Virus record (IMG/VR): IMGVR_UViG_3300024348_000302
Coordinates: 1-20,591 of that record
Length of the DNA: 20,591 nt
Source: a virus
Strand: one strand, 5' to 3'
The position numbers and the translations under genes are program-made. Shown here one piece after another: positions 1 to 12,406 of this stretch (positions within the stretch are counted from its first letter, which is position 1; each line of letters starts with the position of its first letter). Below the pieces are notes generated by a model. That model saw only the letters and a program-made list of their open reading frames with translations. It did no database searches and was not told the DNA's origin.

Positions 1-341
1 CCATCCACTGGACCTGCAGCCGGTTCAGGTAATGACTTTTCTAAATTTGCAGCCTGAGAAGTAGGGAGAACTTTATCAACAAGAGCTGCTAACTTTCCAG
101 GATCCTTTGGAGCTTCTCCACCTGCACCTCCACCCGCTTGTTTAAAAATGTTTTGAATTTGATCAGGTGTAAGTGCCACTTCTGATAGATACTTTTCATA
201 GCCTCTAATAAATCCCTCATCAATACGTTTCCAATGCGGTTTCATCTCGGGGGTAGAATATAAATCCTCAGAGATATATTTCTTAATACTTGAGTTTTGC
301 TCAATATTATCAAGAGAATTTATTAAAAGTCTAATATCCAT
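1..341 (-). CDS. Unrecognised late protein, N-terminal part only
   Basis: An open frame on the minus strand starts with ATG at 341-339 and is still open after 113 codons at the window edge, so the C-terminus is missing. The protein begins MDIRLLINSLDNIEQ, continues as a charged helical stretch (EMKPHWKRIDEGFIRGYEKY), and then has a Gly/Ala-rich linker (QAGGGAGGEAP) before a helix containing KLAALVDKVLP. I do not recognise a family or any catalytic motif. A TATAAATA box 22 bases upstream of the ATG suggests late expression, so a virion or assembly protein is a reasonable inference. The reading frame is well supported because it is long, has a sensible start and sits correctly behind a promoter. 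The function is unknown. Confidence 0.75.
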   Translation of the reverse strand, partial: MDIRLLINSLDNIEQNSSIKKYISEDLYSTPEMKPHWKRIDEGFIRGYEKYLSEVALTPDQIQNIFKQAGGGAGGEAPKDPGKLAALVDKVLPTSQAANLEKSLPEPAAGPVD

Positions 342-362
342 AATTGTGATCCAGTAATCCTT

Positions 363-370
363 TATTTATA
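363..370 (-). promoter_or_regulatory. T4-type late promoter (exact TATAAATA)
   Basis: On the minus strand positions 370 to 363 read TATAAATA, the exact T4 late-promoter box recognised by polymerase carrying the gp55 sigma factor. Transcription would start about 6 bases downstream, near 357, giving a leader of about 16 bases before the ATG at 341. The gene for gp55 lies in the same window (5429-4515). Confidence 0.75.
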
Positions 371-389
371 AAACGAACGCAGTTCGTTT
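371..389 (-). terminator. Hairpin with T-tract, likely intrinsic terminator
   Basis: AAACGAAC (371-378) pairs perfectly with GTTCGTTT (382-389) around a three-base loop. Read on the minus strand, the stem is followed directly by TTATAAATA, so its 3' side ends in a run of four T. This fits a weak rho-independent terminator for leftward transcripts, placed just ahead of the late promoter at 370-363. It could also be only an RNA-processing hairpin, since the T-run is short. Confidence 0.5.
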
Positions 390-413
390 GCTCTTTCGTT
401 ACACTCAGAGCAA
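388..413. other. Hairpin, 7-bp stem
   Basis: TTGCTCT (388-394) pairs with AGAGCAA (407-413) around a 12-base loop. It overlaps the neighbouring hairpin at 371-389 by two bases, so the two compete slightly or stack end to end. No T-tract follows on either strand. The role is unknown; it could be part of a tandem terminator or a structured RNA. Confidence 0.5.
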
Positions 414-462
414 TTGTTTCTTTCAAAGAAAGAATTAATATTATTCAGATCGTTCAGTCACA

Positions 463-1435: not shown

Positions 1436-1685
1436 TTTTCTTTTCCTCTTTTTTAAGTTTTCGTTCTAGCTTTATGTTTGCTAAGTTTTCTTTACATACT
1501 AATTGACTTTGTTTTTTCAATTGCTTGGCCAGCAATTCAACGTCTCGAAGATGTTTCCTACATATATACCCAGGAGTCCTGCCTGTAGTCCTTACAAAAA
1601 TCAAATTTTGATTATGTAGTTCTGCAAAGGCACTGACTAACTGTGAATATAAATCCTTATACTTGTTTATCTCTTCATTCAACAT
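1398..1685 (-). CDS. Small basic protein of unknown function
   Basis: I do not recognise this 95-aa protein. Its N-terminal half is predicted helical (EEINKYKDLYSQLVSAFAEL), then comes a basic segment with RTTGRTPGYICRKHL (32-46), and its last third is strongly Lys-rich (KLERKLKKEEKKNVKHS), which suggests nucleic-acid binding. It starts at 1685-1683, inside the end of gp46 (11-base overlap), and ends inside the H1-like gene (38-base overlap). No good ribosome site precedes it, which fits translational coupling to gp46. Overlap on both sides and the same strand argue that it is a real operon member rather than a chance frame. Confidence 0.65.
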   Translation of the reverse strand: MLNEEINKYKDLYSQLVSAFAELHNQNLIFVRTTGRTPGYICRKHLRDVELLAKQLKKQSQLVCKENLANIKLERKLKKEEKKNVKHSRTTKKSI

Positions 1686-3456
1686 AGTCTACATCGTTTG
1701 AGTAACTGGTAAAACCGTTCTCTTTAATAACTCGGAGTACGTTGTTTACCCTACCTACAAGTTCATCTTTGTGCGATATTAAGTATATATTCTTATTGCG
1801 CTCCCTGGCCATCTTTTTCAGGACAGCTAGGGCACTTTCTACTCCGGCTGCATCCATTCCAGCGTCTACAAGTTCGTCAATAAACAATAAATTAATACTC
1901 TGATACAATCCTTCCCATACATCACGGAAGGCAAAGCTCATACTTAGGATTAATCTGTTACGTTCTCCGCGACTCAGATTATCAAAATCGAGATCTTGTC
2001 CTAGTTGAGTAATCTCAACATTGAGGTCATTTTGAAAAACTACTCTATGCGGAAGTCCTAGCTTATCGATATAGTAGCTCAGGCGCTTGTTTAAATAACT
2101 CAAGTTTTGATCTATAATTTTCTTACGAATAAACGAGTCTTTGTTAGTCAACAACTTATGCAAGAACTCCTGGTGGTCTTTTAACTTATTCAATGTATTA
2201 ACTTCATTCCAGTTAATTTCTTGAATAGCGGTATGATTTAATTCTTCAATCTGTTCTTCGTAGGGATTGTGTTCATCAATTTTAGCAGTTAGACTCTTTT
2301 CTAACCCATCTAAATTGTTTTTATGACCCAATGCTTCAGCTTCTGTATCATAGAACGTCTGTGGCTTGTGCGGTAAATCACCAATGGCACTAACTTCTTC
2401 TACAATTTTACTAAGACTATTGCTAACTTTTTCAAAGTATTCAGCCGCTTCCAACAAATGCTTGTTGGCAGTAGCAGACATTTCTTCGTGTTTGTGGTCG
2501 TGTAGCTCTTGTTCGCAGGCATGACACTTTTTATCAGCTAGACTTTCAAGGTCTTTGCTGTACTTCTTAACAGTTTTTTCAGCTTGACCCAGAGCTGACT
2601 CTAGTGTAGCTTTTTGTTTGTTAAGATTTTTAATTTTAAGATCGTTCTCAGCCCAAGTCTTTACCTGTAAATGTGCCGCAAGTTCAAACTCAATGTCAAC
2701 ATTCTCGAGCCGCATCATAGCACGACCCAAGTTTTCAATGTCTGTTTCTTTTTTACTTGCCCATGCTGCACTTTTAATTTTTAAACTGTCAATACTTTTC
2801 TGTACATTACCGTTGGCAGTCTTAATTGCCTCAATTCTAACAGTTTCAATTTGAATAAAATCTTTGCTTTCTTTGATCTGCAATTTTAAGGCTTCTGCTT
2901 TTTCACTTAATAGTGTAATACCCAACAGTTGTTCAATGACTTCACGCTGTTCTGCTGCCTTCATAGACAGAAACGGTTCTGTATAAGTGTTAAGAGCTAC
3001 TAAATGTTTGAACATTGTATGAGTCATCTCTAACATCTGTTCAATGACTTTTTGCGTTTCTCTACTATCGCCCTGAGCTTCGTCTTCTTTTTCTTCTGCT
3101 TTTAATTCTTGATCATTAACATACAATTTAAGAATATTAGGTTTGCGGCCCCGCTCGATGCGGTAATTAACGCCGTTCTTTTCAAACTCAACTGTAACCA
3201 ACATTGCCTTGCCGTTAGTTTTGTTGATTAGATTCTCTTTTTTGATGTTAGTAAGTGCTTGTCCGTACAGCGCATACGACAATGCATTGATCATTGTAGT
3301 CTTACCTGTACCATTGCGTGACCCTGTATCATCTCCACCTAGGTCTAGGTTAGATCCAAGCACCAGCGTGAGGTGCTCTTTGTCAAAGTCTACAGCTTGA
3401 GTTTGATTTCCTACTGACAGGAAATTTTTTACAGTTATATTGCGGAGTTTAAACAT
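1675..3456 (-). CDS. gp46: Recombination endonuclease ATPase subunit gp46 (Rad50/SbcC-like)
   Basis: This 593-aa SMC-type ATPase would pair with gp47 to resect DNA ends for recombination-dependent replication and repair and, in T4, to help degrade host DNA. All key elements are visible: Walker A GSRNGTGKTT (45-54), a long coiled-coil arm, a zinc hook C311-H-A-C314, the second coiled coil, the ABC signature LSRGE (494-498), Walker B LLFIDE (523-528) and the switch histidine in LISHKDE (H562). Length is close to T4 gp46 (about 560 aa). Its ATG (3456-3454) overlaps the gp47 stop by one base (TAATG), so the two subunits are translationally coupled. A His-rich patch (HDHKHEE, 319-325) directly follows the hook cysteines. 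Identification is very secure. Confidence 0.97.
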   Translation of the reverse strand: MFKLRNITVKNFLSVGNQTQAVDFDKEHLTLVLGSNLDLGGDDTGSRNGTGKTTMINALSYALYGQALTNIKKENLINKTNGKAMLVTVEFEKNGVNYRIERGRKPNILKLYVNDQELKAEEKEDEAQGDSRETQKVIEQMLEMTHTMFKHLVALNTYTEPFLSMKAAEQREVIEQLLGITLLSEKAEALKLQIKESKDFIQIETVRIEAIKTANGNVQKSIDSLKIKSAAWASKKETDIENLGRAMMRLENVDIEFELAAHLQVKTWAENDLKIKNLNKQKATLESALGQAEKTVKKYSKDLESLADKKCHACEQELHDHKHEEMSATANKHLLEAAEYFEKVSNSLSKIVEEVSAIGDLPHKPQTFYDTEAEALGHKNNLDGLEKSLTAKIDEHNPYEEQIEELNHTAIQEINWNEVNTLNKLKDHQEFLHKLLTNKDSFIRKKIIDQNLSYLNKRLSYYIDKLGLPHRVVFQNDLNVEITQLGQDLDFDNLSRGERNRLILSMSFAFRDVWEGLYQSINLLFIDELVDAGMDAAGVESALAVLKKMARERNKNIYLISHKDELVGRVNNVLRVIKENGFTSYSNDVDYVE

Positions 3457-4469
3457 TATAGATTGTTATAGATATCAAGTAAAATCTTCTTATCAAACTG
3501 TTCAGATTCGATATTAATTAATTGTTCGGATACAATTTGATCAACACTTTCAAATTGTTGATCTGGGTTGTCGTCAATTGTACCATCTAAGTTGGTTTTA
3601 TCTTGTATAAGACTAATTTCTCGAATGTCGTGCTCTTTAGTAAACGTTTCTTTAATGAAGTTTGCTTCTTCATAGCTAATATCGATGTCGAGATTAACTT
3701 TAAAGTGCATCTTAGACTTCATGATCTCGTCTTTGCGGTCTAATAGTTCGCTTAGTTTAATGTGCCTAAACTTGGGACAGTCTTCCCAGTTACGATATTC
3801 TGGTACTCCGCCCCATTCAAGGATCATCATACCTCGTTCGTCATCCCACGTATCTGCAAAGTTATGTGGAAACGCATTACCTATGTAATGTACATTGCCT
3901 TGGCTTTGTCTTTTATGGAAGTGACCACTAAAAACATATTCAGGTTTGCCAAAGTCTTCTGCTCTGAGCTCACCATGATCAGGCATCTGCACCATAGCAT
4001 TCATATAGAACAATGGCAGTTCAAAGTGACCAAATACATATTTGCTAGTCAGCTGTTTCATAGCCTTCCACTCGTCGCCAACTAACCACGGTACAAGGGT
4101 AACATCACTTAGAGTAGTGACAGAGTCTACGACAGTCACGCCGGGTATATGGCGTCCGAACATACTACTATGAATGTCTCGCTTGTCCTTGTAGAACAAA
4201 TCGTGGTTACCTGGGAACCAATAGAACTGTTCAAAGGCAGCACCTAGCTTTTCTAAACAGCGCAAACTAGTATCTAATGTAATTAAATTGAGACTATTGC
4301 GGTTATGGCTCCAGTCTCCTAAAAAGATTGCTGTTTCGCAACCTTCTTTCTGGGCTTCTGCAATAAACCAGTCTACAAATTCTTCGCAATCTTTAAGATG
4401 TGTTCCTGAATTTGACTTCAGTCCAAAGTGTATGTCTGTAAAACACGCTACCTTTTTAAATAAGGGCAT
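3456..4469 (-). CDS. gp47: Recombination endonuclease nuclease subunit gp47 (Mre11/SbcD-like)
   Basis: This 337-aa calcineurin-like metallophosphoesterase is the nuclease partner of gp46. The metal-binding motifs appear in order: D12-I-H14, GDWSH (51-55), GNHD (87-90), GHFE (147-150) and GHFH (182-185). The C-terminal third is acidic and ends in FDKKILLDIYNNL, a region that in this family contacts the ATPase partner. Length equals that of T4 gp47 (about 339 aa). A strong ribosome site, TAGGAG, lies 8 bases before the ATG at 4469. A candidate sigma-70 promoter lies at 4490-4518, so the gp47-gp46 pair may be expressed separately from gp55 as well as by read-through. Confidence 0.97.
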   Translation of the reverse strand: MPLFKKVACFTDIHFGLKSNSGTHLKDCEEFVDWFIAEAQKEGCETAIFLGDWSHNRNSLNLITLDTSLRCLEKLGAAFEQFYWFPGNHDLFYKDKRDIHSSMFGRHIPGVTVVDSVTTLSDVTLVPWLVGDEWKAMKQLTSKYVFGHFELPLFYMNAMVQMPDHGELRAEDFGKPEYVFSGHFHKRQSQGNVHYIGNAFPHNFADTWDDERGMMILEWGGVPEYRNWEDCPKFRHIKLSELLDRKDEIMKSKMHFKVNLDIDISYEEANFIKETFTKEHDIREISLIQDKTNLDGTIDDNPDQQFESVDQIVSEQLINIESEQFDKKILLDIYNNL

Positions 4470-4489: not shown

Positions 4490-4518
4490 AGTTTAACAGA
4501 CGTTTTGGATAAAGTCAA
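4490..4518 (-). promoter_or_regulatory. Candidate sigma-70 promoter for gp47-gp46
   Basis: On the minus strand TTGACT (4518-4513, 5 of 6 consensus bases) is followed after 17 bases by TAAACT (4495-4490, 4 of 6). The predicted start is near 4483, just upstream of the gp47 ribosome site and about 14 bases before its ATG. The -35 box overlaps the gp55 stop codon at 4517-4515. Confidence 0.45.
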
Positions 4519-5429
4519 GTTTCTGTTTCTTCGTTTTCTTCAACAAAATCGCCATCCTCACTTTTAGGCATACGGAAGTTTTTATACAACTCAGCTTGGC
4601 GAGCGGTTTCTACTGCGTACCCTTGTTGATTTTGTCTTGTAAGGCTAGGAGTTAATCCATGTGATTCTAGCATGTCATCACGTATGTTTTGATTTTTCTT
4701 TTCTATATTAAGAACCCGGGTAAAGCTGTTAGTTACTGCGGCTGTATAATAAGCAAATGGGTTTTCTGATTTACTTTCATCAAACTGTAATCCAATTTGA
4801 CTTAGCTGTAGAATAGCCTGTCCCCGCATTTCTTCAACATAGGTATAACCACGCCAGTTGCTACGCTGTGCATAGCGTTCGGACAATTTAATATACATCT
4901 TGCCCAAGTTTTCAGTGATACGTCCGTGATCTTTGCTGAACTTGCCAGTGTCTAACGGACCTTTCCAATGCGATTTTCCAACGCAGATTAATTCATCTTG
5001 ATCATTAAACTTCCAATGCTGATACGGGGGAAAGTTTACTTTCTCATGAGCATCAGCAGTTGTTTTAGTTGTCTTTTTGCGACCCGGTGCCAGTGGGATA
5101 TGATCAAATGTCATAATTCTAAATACAACATCTGGTTTAGCAATAGTTTTGTAGTCAGCTGTACATTCAATTAGTTTAACTTTCTTGTCGCCGCTGGCTC
5201 TAGCGGCTGCAAATTTAGCTAACCCTAATCTTTTAGCTTTGGCACGTTTAGCATCGGCAACAGTCCTAATGTTAATTTTATCCAAATTAGTTAGAATTAT
5301 GTCATGTTGCATAAACTCGGGTTGTTCATAACTTGAGAATGAACTCTTGCTACGATGAATTTCTGCTAATAAATCTCTGTTGTTTAGGTATTTTACTTTT
5401 CTTCCTGTGGGAATTAAACTTACGGTCAT
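4515..5429 (-). CDS. gp55: Late-transcription sigma factor gp55, enlarged form
   Basis: This 304-aa protein is the likely phage sigma factor that directs host RNA polymerase to late promoters. The sigma core lies in the C-terminal half: YAQRSNWRGYTYVEEM (186-201), then SKSENPFAYYTAAV (219-232) and FTRVLNIEKKNQ (236-247). These match T4 gp55, which has the same 'SKS.NPFA.FT......R..NKEKK' block (sigma region 2). T4 gp55 is only about 185 aa; here some 120 extra residues come first, with YLNNRDLLAEIHRSKSSF (14-31), a basic Ala/Lys segment (60-85) and VVFRIMTFDHIPLAPGRKK (101-119). Enlarged forms like this occur in marine T4-like phages. The acidic tail (EENEETET) may serve the sliding-clamp or gp33 contact, which is a guess. 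The gene opens the leftward operon behind a consensus sigma-70 promoter. Confidence 0.85.
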   Translation of the reverse strand: MTVSLIPTGRKVKYLNNRDLLAEIHRSKSSFSSYEQPEFMQHDIILTNLDKINIRTVADAKRAKAKRLGLAKFAAARASGDKKVKLIECTADYKTIAKPDVVFRIMTFDHIPLAPGRKKTTKTTADAHEKVNFPPYQHWKFNDQDELICVGKSHWKGPLDTGKFSKDHGRITENLGKMYIKLSERYAQRSNWRGYTYVEEMRGQAILQLSQIGLQFDESKSENPFAYYTAAVTNSFTRVLNIEKKNQNIRDDMLESHGLTPSLTRQNQQGYAVETARQAELYKNFRMPKSEDGDFVEENEETET

Positions 5430-5452
5430 TGTTATTATTATCCTTGTAAGAC

Positions 5453-5482
5453 ATTATAGCATTGTAGAAATGGTAATGTCAA
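5453..5482 (-). promoter_or_regulatory. Consensus sigma-70 promoter for the gp55 operon
   Basis: On the minus strand a perfect -35 box TTGACA (5482-5477) is separated by 18 bases from a perfect -10 box TATAAT (5458-5453), which is preceded by TGC (extended -10). The start would be near 5446, with ribosome site AAGGA at 5445-5441 and the gp55 ATG at 5429. This is the signature of a strong early phage promoter read by unmodified host polymerase. Confidence 0.8.
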
Positions 5483-5499
5483 CCATTATAAGAGCGTTT

Positions 5500-5507
5500 T
5501 ATTTATT
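5500..5507 (-). promoter_or_regulatory. Possible late promoter facing gp55
   Basis: Minus-strand AATAAATA (5507-5500) matches TATAAATA at 7 of 8 bases and is the same variant seen before gp25 and gp6. It lies upstream of the sigma-70 promoter and could let gp55 maintain its own expression late. In A+T-rich DNA an 8-base match can arise by chance. Confidence 0.3.
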
Positions 5508-5508
5508 G

Positions 5509-5516
5509 GTTAAATA
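5509..5516 (+). promoter_or_regulatory. Late promoter of the baseplate operon
   Basis: GTTAAATA (5509-5516) matches six of eight bases of TATAAATA and contains the TAAATA core used as the late motif in marine T4-like phages. The start would be near 5522, followed by GAGGAA (5525-5530) and the ATG at 5538, which is the right spacing for a short late leader. Confidence 0.5.
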
Positions 5517-5537
5517 CACTATACGAGGAATTATAGA

Positions 5538-6317
5538 ATGGCCATTGCATACGATCAACTCAGCGGTGATAGAAGAGAAAAAATTGTAAGAAAACGTTCC
5601 TTACAATTGGATACATCTGCTTTTGGGGAACGAGTTGTTCCCGGAGTACCAATGGGCGCCGAACCAGAAAAACCAGAAAAGCTGGAGGTAGAGTTTCAAG
5701 ATATTAAAGGCAACCTATCAAAAGATGACACCCGAGTTAAAATATTAGTTCCTCCAAAATACATTACTAAATTTCTTAAAGGACCAAATGATGAGATTGC
5801 TAATATTGGAGGAATATTATTTCCGTATACTCCAAGTGTTAGTTATGAAGCCAAGGCCGAATACGCTGAATCAAAACCTTTACATTCAAACTTTTCTACC
5901 AACTTTTATCAAAGAAGTAGTATAGGTAATATTTCAATTAGCGGAAAATTTTCTGTAGAAAACGCAGACGATGCTGTAATATATCTATCAACTATGCATC
6001 TTTTAAAATCTTTAACAAGAATGAGGTTTGGTGGTGATCCAGATGCCGGCGCCCCACCCCCCGTTTGTAGATTATATGCCGGTGGTGAAGCAATGTTGCA
6101 CAATGTTCCCGTAGCAATTGCAAGTTATAGAATAGAGATGCCCGACAGTGTAGACTATTTTACAATTTCTAATCATATAGATTTTGGTACAACCGCAGTT
6201 CCTGTAGTATCTACTATTGCAATTACTTGCGTGCCTATGTATAGCAGAGCTGAAATGCAGAAATTTTCTGTAGCTAGCTATAATGATGGTGCCTTTTGGA
6301 AACAAGGATATATTTAA
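5538..6317 (+). CDS. Baseplate tail-tube cap/initiator-like protein (gp48/gp54 type)
   Basis: This 259-aa protein opens the baseplate operon. After a polar N-terminus (1-60) it has a tube-like core: VKILVPPKYIT (67-77), GGILFPYTPSVSYEAKAEY (91-109), HSNFSTNFYQRSSIGNISI (116-134), PPPVCRLY (173-180), VPVAIASYRIEMPDSVDYF (190-208) and ITCVPMYSREM-like ITCVPMYSRAEM (229-240). This is typical of the protein that marine T4-like phages encode just before gp53, where the hub meets the tail tube; I recall it annotated as tail tube cap (gp48) or tube initiator (gp54) but cannot decide between them. Ribosome site GAGGAA lies 7 bases before the ATG. Its stop overlaps the gp53 start by one base. Confidence 0.7.
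   Translation: MAIAYDQLSGDRREKIVRKRSLQLDTSAFGERVVPGVPMGAEPEKPEKLEVEFQDIKGNLSKDDTRVKILVPPKYITKFLKGPNDEIANIGGILFPYTPSVSYEAKAEYAESKPLHSNFSTNFYQRSSIGNISISGKFSVENADDAVIYLSTMHLLKSLTRMRFGGDPDAGAPPPVCRLYAGGEAMLHNVPVAIASYRIEMPDSVDYFTISNHIDFGTTAVPVVSTIAITCVPMYSRAEMQKFSVASYNDGAFWKQGYI
6304..6308 (+). promoter_or_regulatory. Ribosome binding site that fixes the gp53 start
   Basis: AAGGA (6304-6308) lies 8 bases before the ATG at 6317. It argues against the longer TTG start at 6296, which would add seven residues inside the upstream gene and has no such site. Confidence 0.7.
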
Positions 6318-12398: not shown

Positions 12399-12406
12399 AA
12401 TAAATA
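12399..12406 (+). promoter_or_regulatory. Late promoter before gp25
   Basis: AATAAATA (12399-12406) matches the T4 late box at 7 of 8 bases and lies in the only 18-base gap between the gp5 stop and gp25. The predicted start (near 12412) falls on the gp25 ATG at 12411, so a transcript from here would have almost no leader. The motif overlaps the 3' flank of the ribosome site AAGGA (12393-12397). Confidence 0.45.

Follow-up and report, generated by a model that had tools for sequence, protein, structure and literature searches.

Residue N13 of the T4 late sigma factor gp55 contacts the -9 adenine of the late promoter, and three acidic residues of the same protein bind the clamp helices of RNA polymerase (RNAP) (PMC7892883). 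Artificial gp55-gp33 fusions work in vitro, and it has been asked why no natural fused late sigma is found (PMC2988020). In sigma70, region 1.2 contacts the -10 element, while the NCR, located in domain sigma-2, contacts both DNA at -16/-17 and beta'. The contact with beta' antagonises the one between sigma-2 and the beta' clamp and aids promoter escape. Regions 1.2, NCR, 2.1 and 2.3 of sigma are the targets of Crl, RbpA and GcrA, proteins that strengthen the binding between sigma and RNAP, and NCR-binding regulators also exist, e.g. GrgA, which docks on a sigma NCR (PMC7403470).

The gp55 of the virus analysed here differs from that of T4 by a domain placed within the chain. The window, i.e. 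the whole stretch of DNA that was analysed (20,591 bases), is an entire virus record; gp33 was searched for in reference genomes and relatives.

The gp55 gene and its control region

The gene, its parts and its neighbours are as follows:

4515..5429, minus strand: gp55-type late sigma factor, 304 aa, ATG start at 5429 (ORF and profile matches)
5346..5396, minus strand: ancestral N-terminal segment, residues 12-28, VKYLNNRDLLAEIHRSK, equivalent to T4 gp55 residues 8-24 (sequence and structural alignments, gapless register)
4920..5348, minus strand: inserted domain, modelled residues 28-170, alpha/beta, autonomous predicted fold (AF2; 405/405 loci)
4644..4919, minus strand: sigma region 2 core, residues 171-262, with helices 173-187, 198-215 and 224-256 (AF2 model, alignments)
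4518..4643, minus strand: C-terminal helix and acidic tail, residues 263-304, without the T4-type clamp-binding motif (AF2 model, pattern search)
3456..4469, minus strand: gp47/SbcD homologue, the next gene on the strand of gp55 (PHROG match)
1675..3456, minus strand: gp46/SbcC homologue (PHROG match)
5538..6317, plus strand: virion structural protein, divergent from gp55 (phrog_12050)

The 4515-5429 ORF is a genuine gp55-type late sigma factor. In a PHROG profile search its residues 10-269 matched phrog_12791, "sigma factor for late transcription" (E 1.4e-82; profile positions 5-272 of 286), and residues 165-275 matched phrog_234 (E 7.6e-25), while in a PDB sequence search residues 152-246 matched T4 gp55 (7d7c chain F, E 4.8e-6). 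With 304 aa the protein exceeds T4 gp55 (185 aa) by 119 aa, and it is 45% identical to the gp55 of PA5oct. It is not new, since the full-length family is already present in PHROGs, where it is annotated as a late sigma. The order gp55-47-46 with the divergent neighbour was found in seven of the eight insertion-bearing reference genomes opened, the exception being SCTP-2. Two further ORFs on the minus strand lie nearby: a 65-aa ORF downstream of gp46 (1238-1435) matches Pfam Hc1, a histone H1-like protein (E 2.1e-14), and near genes 46/47 there is a SegE-type GIY-YIG endonuclease (806-1234; Pfam PF19835, E 1.7e-31).

The intergenic sequence 5430-5537 has the appearance of a compact divergent control region, whose three promoter-like elements are each over-represented in relatives:

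5441..5445, minus strand: Shine-Dalgarno-like AAGGA of gp55 (sequence)
5453..5482, minus strand: sigma70-type promoter-like pair of gp55, TTGACA at 5482-5477, 18-base spacer, TATAAT at 5458-5453 (sequence)
5500..5506, minus strand: ATAAATA pointing to gp55, which may be a late promoter for this gene (sequence)
5511..5516, plus strand: TAAATA resembling a late promoter, directed at the divergent structural gene (sequence)

In 141 usable gp55/structural-gene intergenic regions, obtained from 149 family rows, TTGACA/TATAAT-type pairs directed towards gp55 were present in 51 (shuffle mean 0.06), TAAATA on the strand of the structural gene in 124 (shuffle mean 32.6) and ATAAATA towards gp55 in 34 (shuffle mean 12.9). 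From these motifs gp55 looks to be driven by host sigma70, late genes seem to use a T4-like promoter word, and the ATAAATA facing gp55 makes autoregulation possible. The window gp55 would direct host RNAP to late promoters, a role that the TAAATA-type sites upstream of the structural gene fit. An ATAAATA-type late promoter word has been published for CBB (PMC5259590). Within the window, ATAAATA occurs four times (12400 and 12870, plus; 5506 and 369, minus), each time no more than about 70 bases ahead of an ORF start, and the copy at 12400 ends 4 bases before the ATG, which is too close for a usual leader. The 8-mer GATAAATA was enriched in PA5oct (22 vs 4.0), and the 14 words listed for the relative G001 or for CBB include none of the ATAAATA type.

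Position, fold and distribution of the insertion

An earlier note on this DNA described the additional sequence as an N-terminal extension before the sigma core. The extra conserved residues are indeed there, but sequence registers and structural alignment place them elsewhere: it is well supported that about 128 residues are inserted between the N-terminal segment and sigma region 2, forming a domain of approximately residues 29-170. The motif YLNNRDLLAEIHRSK (YLNNRDLL), which the note had counted among the extension's own motifs, corresponds to the N-terminal YVNNKELLQAI of T4 gp55, Y14 being equivalent to T4 Y10 and N17 to T4 N13; the other motif, FRIMTFDHIPLAPGRKK, does lie inside the insertion. 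The motif Y(V/I)(N/D)N is present near the N-terminus, beginning at residue 5-32, in all ten short gp55s compared (T4, four cyanophages, marine virus AG-345-D19, CZ01, Stupor, pf16 and RAS14). An eleventh, that of Campylobacter NCTC12673, has a degenerate motif only and was excluded from the motif-distance and residue comparisons. All nine insertion-bearing references, the window included, carry this segment, which reads YLNN in the window. The distance from this motif to sigma region 2 is 162 residues in the window and 34 in T4, a difference of 128, and it ranges from 153 to 209 in proteins with the insertion versus 24 to 49 in short gp55s; therefore, the extra sequence is internal.

A 17-column N-terminal profile, built from nine short gp55s, had its best gapless match at the motif in 159/159 proteins (158 with the insertion, and RAS14), of which the 150 rows of the family alignment, window included, had passed a motif filter and the nine references had not. 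In the window the motif scored 25.9, against a best of -2.0 in region 128-160, and one of 2000 shuffles of the protein reached 25.9. Across whole proteomes, gp55 ranked first with this profile in PA5oct (2241 ORFs) and G001 (1987); in CBB, 7 of 3139 ORFs outscored gp55, i.e. the motif is not proteome-unique there. The hmmsearch scores of the profile were weak (median 1.9, window 1.8, shuffled maximum 1.7), and the best match lay within the first 60 residues in 147/159. The full-length AF2 model aligned with T4 gp55 over 111 residues (Z 10.7, rmsd 3.4), the alignment spanning window 14..268 and T4 10..153.

Were the sequence nevertheless a true N-terminal extension, the T4 N-terminus would correspond to window residues ~137-160 and the YLNN motif would be a coincidence or a duplication. 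Such a reading agrees with an hhalign comparison of the 150-row family with the single T4 gp55, which paired window 139-245 with T4 8-115 and missed the N-terminal register, and with an imperfect repeat, E(I/V)xxS(K/H), seen by eye in several references close to the two ends of the insertion. However, it conflicts with the motif register, with strands 137-141 and 147-152 of the AF2 model, which occupy the place where the T4 N-terminus would fall, and with the structural alignment, which begins at window 14 (T4 10). It is also at odds with the gp55 of RAS14, which bridges the two forms, as its motif segment YINNADLLIELAKSH leads almost straight into sigma region 2. We regard it as highly improbable.

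The repeat itself (residues ~22-28 and 148-154, AEIHRSK and ICVGKSH in the window) is clearer in references such as CBB, and RAS14 has one copy, IELAKSH; it could be a trace of the insertion's origin, or chance. A downstream start, which the earlier note had allowed for, was rejected as unlikely, because a start at M40 or M106 would delete a conserved motif that 402 of 405 ORFs have ahead of the insertion (the remaining three are truncated where the fetched piece begins); moreover, AAGGA precedes the ATG at 5429. Likewise, the note had considered that the extension might align with residues present in T4 gp55, and this holds for its first part, residues 12-28.

The insertion is confidently predicted to be an autonomous alpha/beta domain. 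Residues 28-170 folded alone reached pLDDT 96.2 and pTM 0.87 in AF2, and in the full-length model (mean pLDDT 89.2) residues 31-170 stood at 88-98 per block. A search of PDB folds with the insertion gave no convincing match (Foldseek best E 0.27; none above Z 2.2 among 736 chains aligned), although this absence is not proof of a new fold, and the best E in a PDB sequence search was 0.92. A known Pfam domain was rejected as well, as the 149 insertions of the family produced weak matches scattered over 56 families (best E 0.0023 among the matches listed, which cover 25 of the 56), with none for the window; in a PHROG scan of the same set only phrog_12791 was found at E 0.001. In the viral structure library BFVD, two entries matched the insertion fold at E <= 0.001, A0A8S5T0K9 (340 aa) and A0A2Z5HHY8 (134 aa). 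The latter, with E 2.1e-5 and 32% identity, is possibly a stand-alone or truncated copy of the insertion. Phage UB has one insertion match and, in the stretch examined, an ordinary gp55 gene.

At all 405 loci (287 distinct sequences, several loci covering one contig) the sigma core was in the same ORF as the insertion; stand-alone insertion domains were found at none of these loci, all of which were fetched with insertion-bearing queries. Among 16 genomes or records searched, the insertion occurred once per genome in 11/11 with an insertion-bearing gp55 and was absent from RAS14, T4 and three cyanophages.

R104, S153 and H154 are invariant in the 150-row alignment. Charge varies: the window insertion contains 27 K/R and 17 D/E (net +10), that of RaK2 17 K/R and 26 D/E (net -9), and that of CBB has a net charge of -11. 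Over 149 sequences the range is -11 to +17, with 109 positive; therefore, the "partly basic" character reported earlier is not a conserved feature of the family. For the family rows, 310 ORFs were matched, of which three without the motif (cut at the piece start) and three without a usable start were dropped. This left 304 ORFs, 214 of them unique, among which the motif count of 214/214 is circular, in contrast to the 402/405 obtained without a motif filter. Proteins shorter than 255 or longer than 335 aa were excluded from the family alignment, and of 155 sequences at 88%, 150 entered this alignment and 149 the insertion/charge set.

Tblastn with the full gp55 matched 1213 phage records, with coverage above 80% of the query in only 56, whereas with the first 151 residues it matched 57, of which 56 over at least 80% of the query, SCTP-2 being matched at residues 79-151 only. 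The insertion-bearing records are PA5oct-, Atu_ph07-, RaK2-, 121Q-, CBB- and Munch-like phages and similar. Metagenomic virus contigs contributed at least 597 relatives (597 of 599 matched stretches, fragments and duplicates included), and nine contigs in bacterial MAGs also carry the inserted part. In a tree of the sigma core of 49 proteins (30 of 154 relatives, i.e. every fifth, and 19 references, with NCTC12673 left out) the insertion carriers formed one clade (UFBoot 98) with RAS14 as sister (UFBoot 99). The simplest history is therefore a single gain, which would have taken place in the RaK2/PA5oct/Atu_ph07-type lineage. We found no mention of the insertion in the openly accessible portions of the literature, including those on CBB, Atu_ph07, AP-J-162 and phAPEC6 and a jumbo phage overview.

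Retained contacts, gp33 and the sliding clamp

The window gp55 retains late-promoter-reading residues of T4: N13 is N17, F86 is F216, Y97 is Y227 and T99 is T229, the last two T4 residues contacting the -12 and -8 adenines. T4 Y10 is kept as Y14, and T4 H95 is replaced by F225, F being found at this position also in cyanophages. By analogy with sigma70, N17 would play a region 1.2-like part. Of the three acidic T4 residues that bind to the clamp helices of RNAP, E70 is kept (E200), while D74 is Q204 and E77 is L207. The position of E77 is hydrophobic in 9/9 insertion-bearing references and in RAS14 and is E in 9/9 of the other short gp55s; therefore, the sigma-2/beta' interface is changed in the insertion carriers. 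The clamp-binding tail assumed by the earlier note was not found in the window gp55, and the T4-type C-terminal pattern was present in 0/150 aligned insertion relatives. It occurs in four of the eleven short references (T4, Stupor, pf16 and NCTC12673), and 121Q alone among the insertion-bearing references matches it, in a charged stretch. The missing tail does not exclude membership of gp55, because accepted cyanophage gp55s also lack the pattern.

gp33 (phrog_254) was found in 0/8 insertion-bearing reference genomes and was not detected in RAS14; the controls, T4 and seven of eight short-gp55 phages, were positive, with NCTC12673 as the exception. One of four metagenomic fragments (G003) gave a phrog_254 match at chance level (E 0.02, 28 positions), equal in strength to a second, false-looking match in T4 (E 0.03). 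A local gp33 profile, which recovered held-out gp33s in 6/6 cases (3e-32 to 1e-6), yielded no convincing match in PA5oct (best E 0.53), CBB (0.066 and 0.077) or G001 (2.1). Group 2 jumbo phages, including the Atu_ph07 type, have been stated to have a gp33 orthologue (PMC7824862), which was not reproduced in the genomes examined. A very divergent gp33 could have escaped detection. A fusion of gp55 to gp33 was rejected, as the insertion and gp33 showed no homology (hhalign probability 0.1). RAS14, which has no insertion, likewise has the altered E77 position and no detectable gp33; therefore, neither feature can be attributed to the insertion.

A gp45-like clamp (phrog_12062) was detected in 8/8 insertion-bearing reference genomes (the query came from one of these) and in two metagenomic relatives. 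This family is listed in PHROGs as having an unknown function. Its link to gp45 through phrog_223 comes from Vibrio phage 2.275.O only (E 1e-5 and 6.7e-5); hhalign of phrog_12062 against gp45 gave a probability of 76 (E 2.2e-5), and by sequence the family had no match among PDB clamps at E <= 1. On this moderate evidence, phrog_12062 may be a divergent gp45-type sliding clamp. No gp45 homologue is reported in the accessible part of the publication on CBB (PMC5259590). In Vibrio phage 2.275.O the clamp gene (L336:1414-2133; homologues L355-L364) directly follows an ORF that by eye resembles the C-terminal part of a DNA polymerase. RAS14, a large phage whose gp55 is short, gave a weak gp45 match only (E 3.2e-5) and may be a separate late-transcription variant.

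Possible role of the inserted domain and comparison with known systems

The earlier note proposed that the additional sequence supplies contacts with DNA or polymerase. A conserved and, as predicted by AF2, autonomous domain beside the promoter-recognition segment is in line with the general idea, and its specific versions fare less well. The best explanation, to which we assign a probability of about 0.45, is that the insertion is a built-in NCR- or Crl-like module acting at sigma-2 and the beta' clamp. The domain would lie next to the beta' clamp and to the upstream border of the -10 element; from there it could modulate or reinforce both the binding of sigma-2 to beta' and the formation of open complexes at ATAAATA promoters. 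It might thereby let this sigma, which has no sigma-4 and no detectable gp33, do without the latter. The contact between domain and beta' is inferred from the place in the chain. Since the sigma70 NCR/beta' contact is antagonistic, the precedent cuts both ways, and easier promoter escape is equally conceivable.

Other roles have to be weighed against the NCR/Crl-like module. The domain might be a built-in functional substitute for gp33, a replacement that the earlier note had suggested; it would then reach the beta flap and upstream DNA within a single-chain late sigma. The failure to detect gp33 in the insertion-bearing references, or convincingly in PA5oct, CBB and G001, speaks for it. However, the insertion has neither homology to gp33 nor a fold match, and by its position, as judged from the T4 complex (PMC7892883), it lies at sigma-2 and not at the flap site of gp33. 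Direct replacement is thus unproven, because the insertion is not gp33-homologous and the insertion-free RAS14 also has no detectable gp33, and we consider it unlikely. Equally unlikely is an adaptor that binds the divergent sliding clamp, couples late transcription to replication and replaces the lost C-terminal clamp motif. The clamp gene accompanies the insertion in all eight references and two metagenomic relatives, and the T4-type tail is missing from all 150 aligned sequences, but the pattern is restricted to 4/11 short references, and cyanophage gp55s have neither pattern nor insertion.

Slightly less probable is a docking site for a phage or host regulator, dispensable for basal activity. 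NCR-binding regulators provide a precedent (PMC7403470) and the invariant R104, S153 and H154 of the alignment suggest a binding surface, but no partner gene was identified. We give least weight among these roles to a reader of upstream promoter DNA, another function suggested by the earlier note. The net positive charge of the window insertion and of most of its relatives would suit it, as would the DNA contact of the sigma70 NCR at -16/-17 (PMC7403470), a T at -7 in 70% of the 33 ATAAATA sites of PA5oct, and A/T and G/C biases in the sequence preceding TAAATA between gp55 and the structural gene. On the other hand, the charge is not conserved, as RaK2 and CBB demonstrate, and the only late-promoter-like element found was of the ATAAATA type. 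No strong block was seen upstream of ATAAATA in G001, PA5oct and CBB, which is a weak test, ATAAATA not being top-enriched in G001 and CBB. The intergenic biases are confounded, because gp55's own promoter overlaps them on the other strand.

A broader proposal, which we regard as doubtful though conceivable, is that this lineage has a natural single-chain late sigma, in which a gp55 with a built-in domain of an unsolved fold at the NCR position replaces the split gp55 and gp33 system of T4, which two C-terminal tails tether to the sliding clamp, so that late transcription proceeds without gp33 and without a T4-type clamp tether. If true, this would bear on why no natural fused late sigma is found (PMC2988020). 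Retained in this lineage are the late promoter word and the sigma core and, in its reference genomes, a clamp, while no gp33 was seen, the T4-type tail is missing and a new sigma domain is present. The insertion lineage serves as a natural experiment on the rebuilding of a minimal sigma, with RAS14 as the insertion-free comparison.

With T4 gp55, the window protein has in common the -10-contacting N-terminal segment, the sigma region 2 helices and the late promoter word, and in T4 genes 46 and 47 are also on the strand of gp55, a few genes away. In contrast, T4 gp55 has no inserted domain and the window gp55 has no counterpart of the C-terminal clamp-binding motif of T4 (SLDFLY), and T4 possesses gp33, which is not detectable in the eight insertion-bearing reference genomes. 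T4 gp33 sits on the beta flap (PMC7892883), whereas the inserted domain lies within gp55, next to sigma-2. The gp55 of Stenotrophomonas phage RAS14 (209 aa) has the same motif and no insertion, with 24 residues from motif to sigma region 2. PHROG 12791 (RaK2, PA5oct, Atu_ph07, 121Q, CBB and others) is the full-length family with the insertion, from which the window protein differs only by sequence divergence.

The NCR of sigma70 spans approximately residues 128-372, i.e. about 245 residues, compared with about 128 for the insertion. No likeness to this NCR or to Crl was found, because the insertion matched no known fold; neither its sequence nor its fold matched PDB chains. The AF2 model aligned with E. 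coli sigma70 (4yln_F) over 91 residues (Z 7.3), 15..248 of the model corresponding to 110..447 of sigma70, which leaves about 143 model residues and about 247 sigma70 residues unmatched within these ranges. The alignment gives end residues only and not gap positions, and from the positions of the helices the unmatched parts appear to face each other. As in an NCR-type insertion, the extra domain of the window gp55 is situated between a region 1.2-like segment and region 2; an NCR-like contact with beta' and DNA would follow by analogy. The structural alignment thus suggests that the two insertions occupy the same place in the chain, and this gp55 may be seen as an independent example of a sigma with a domain inserted at the site of the sigma70 NCR.
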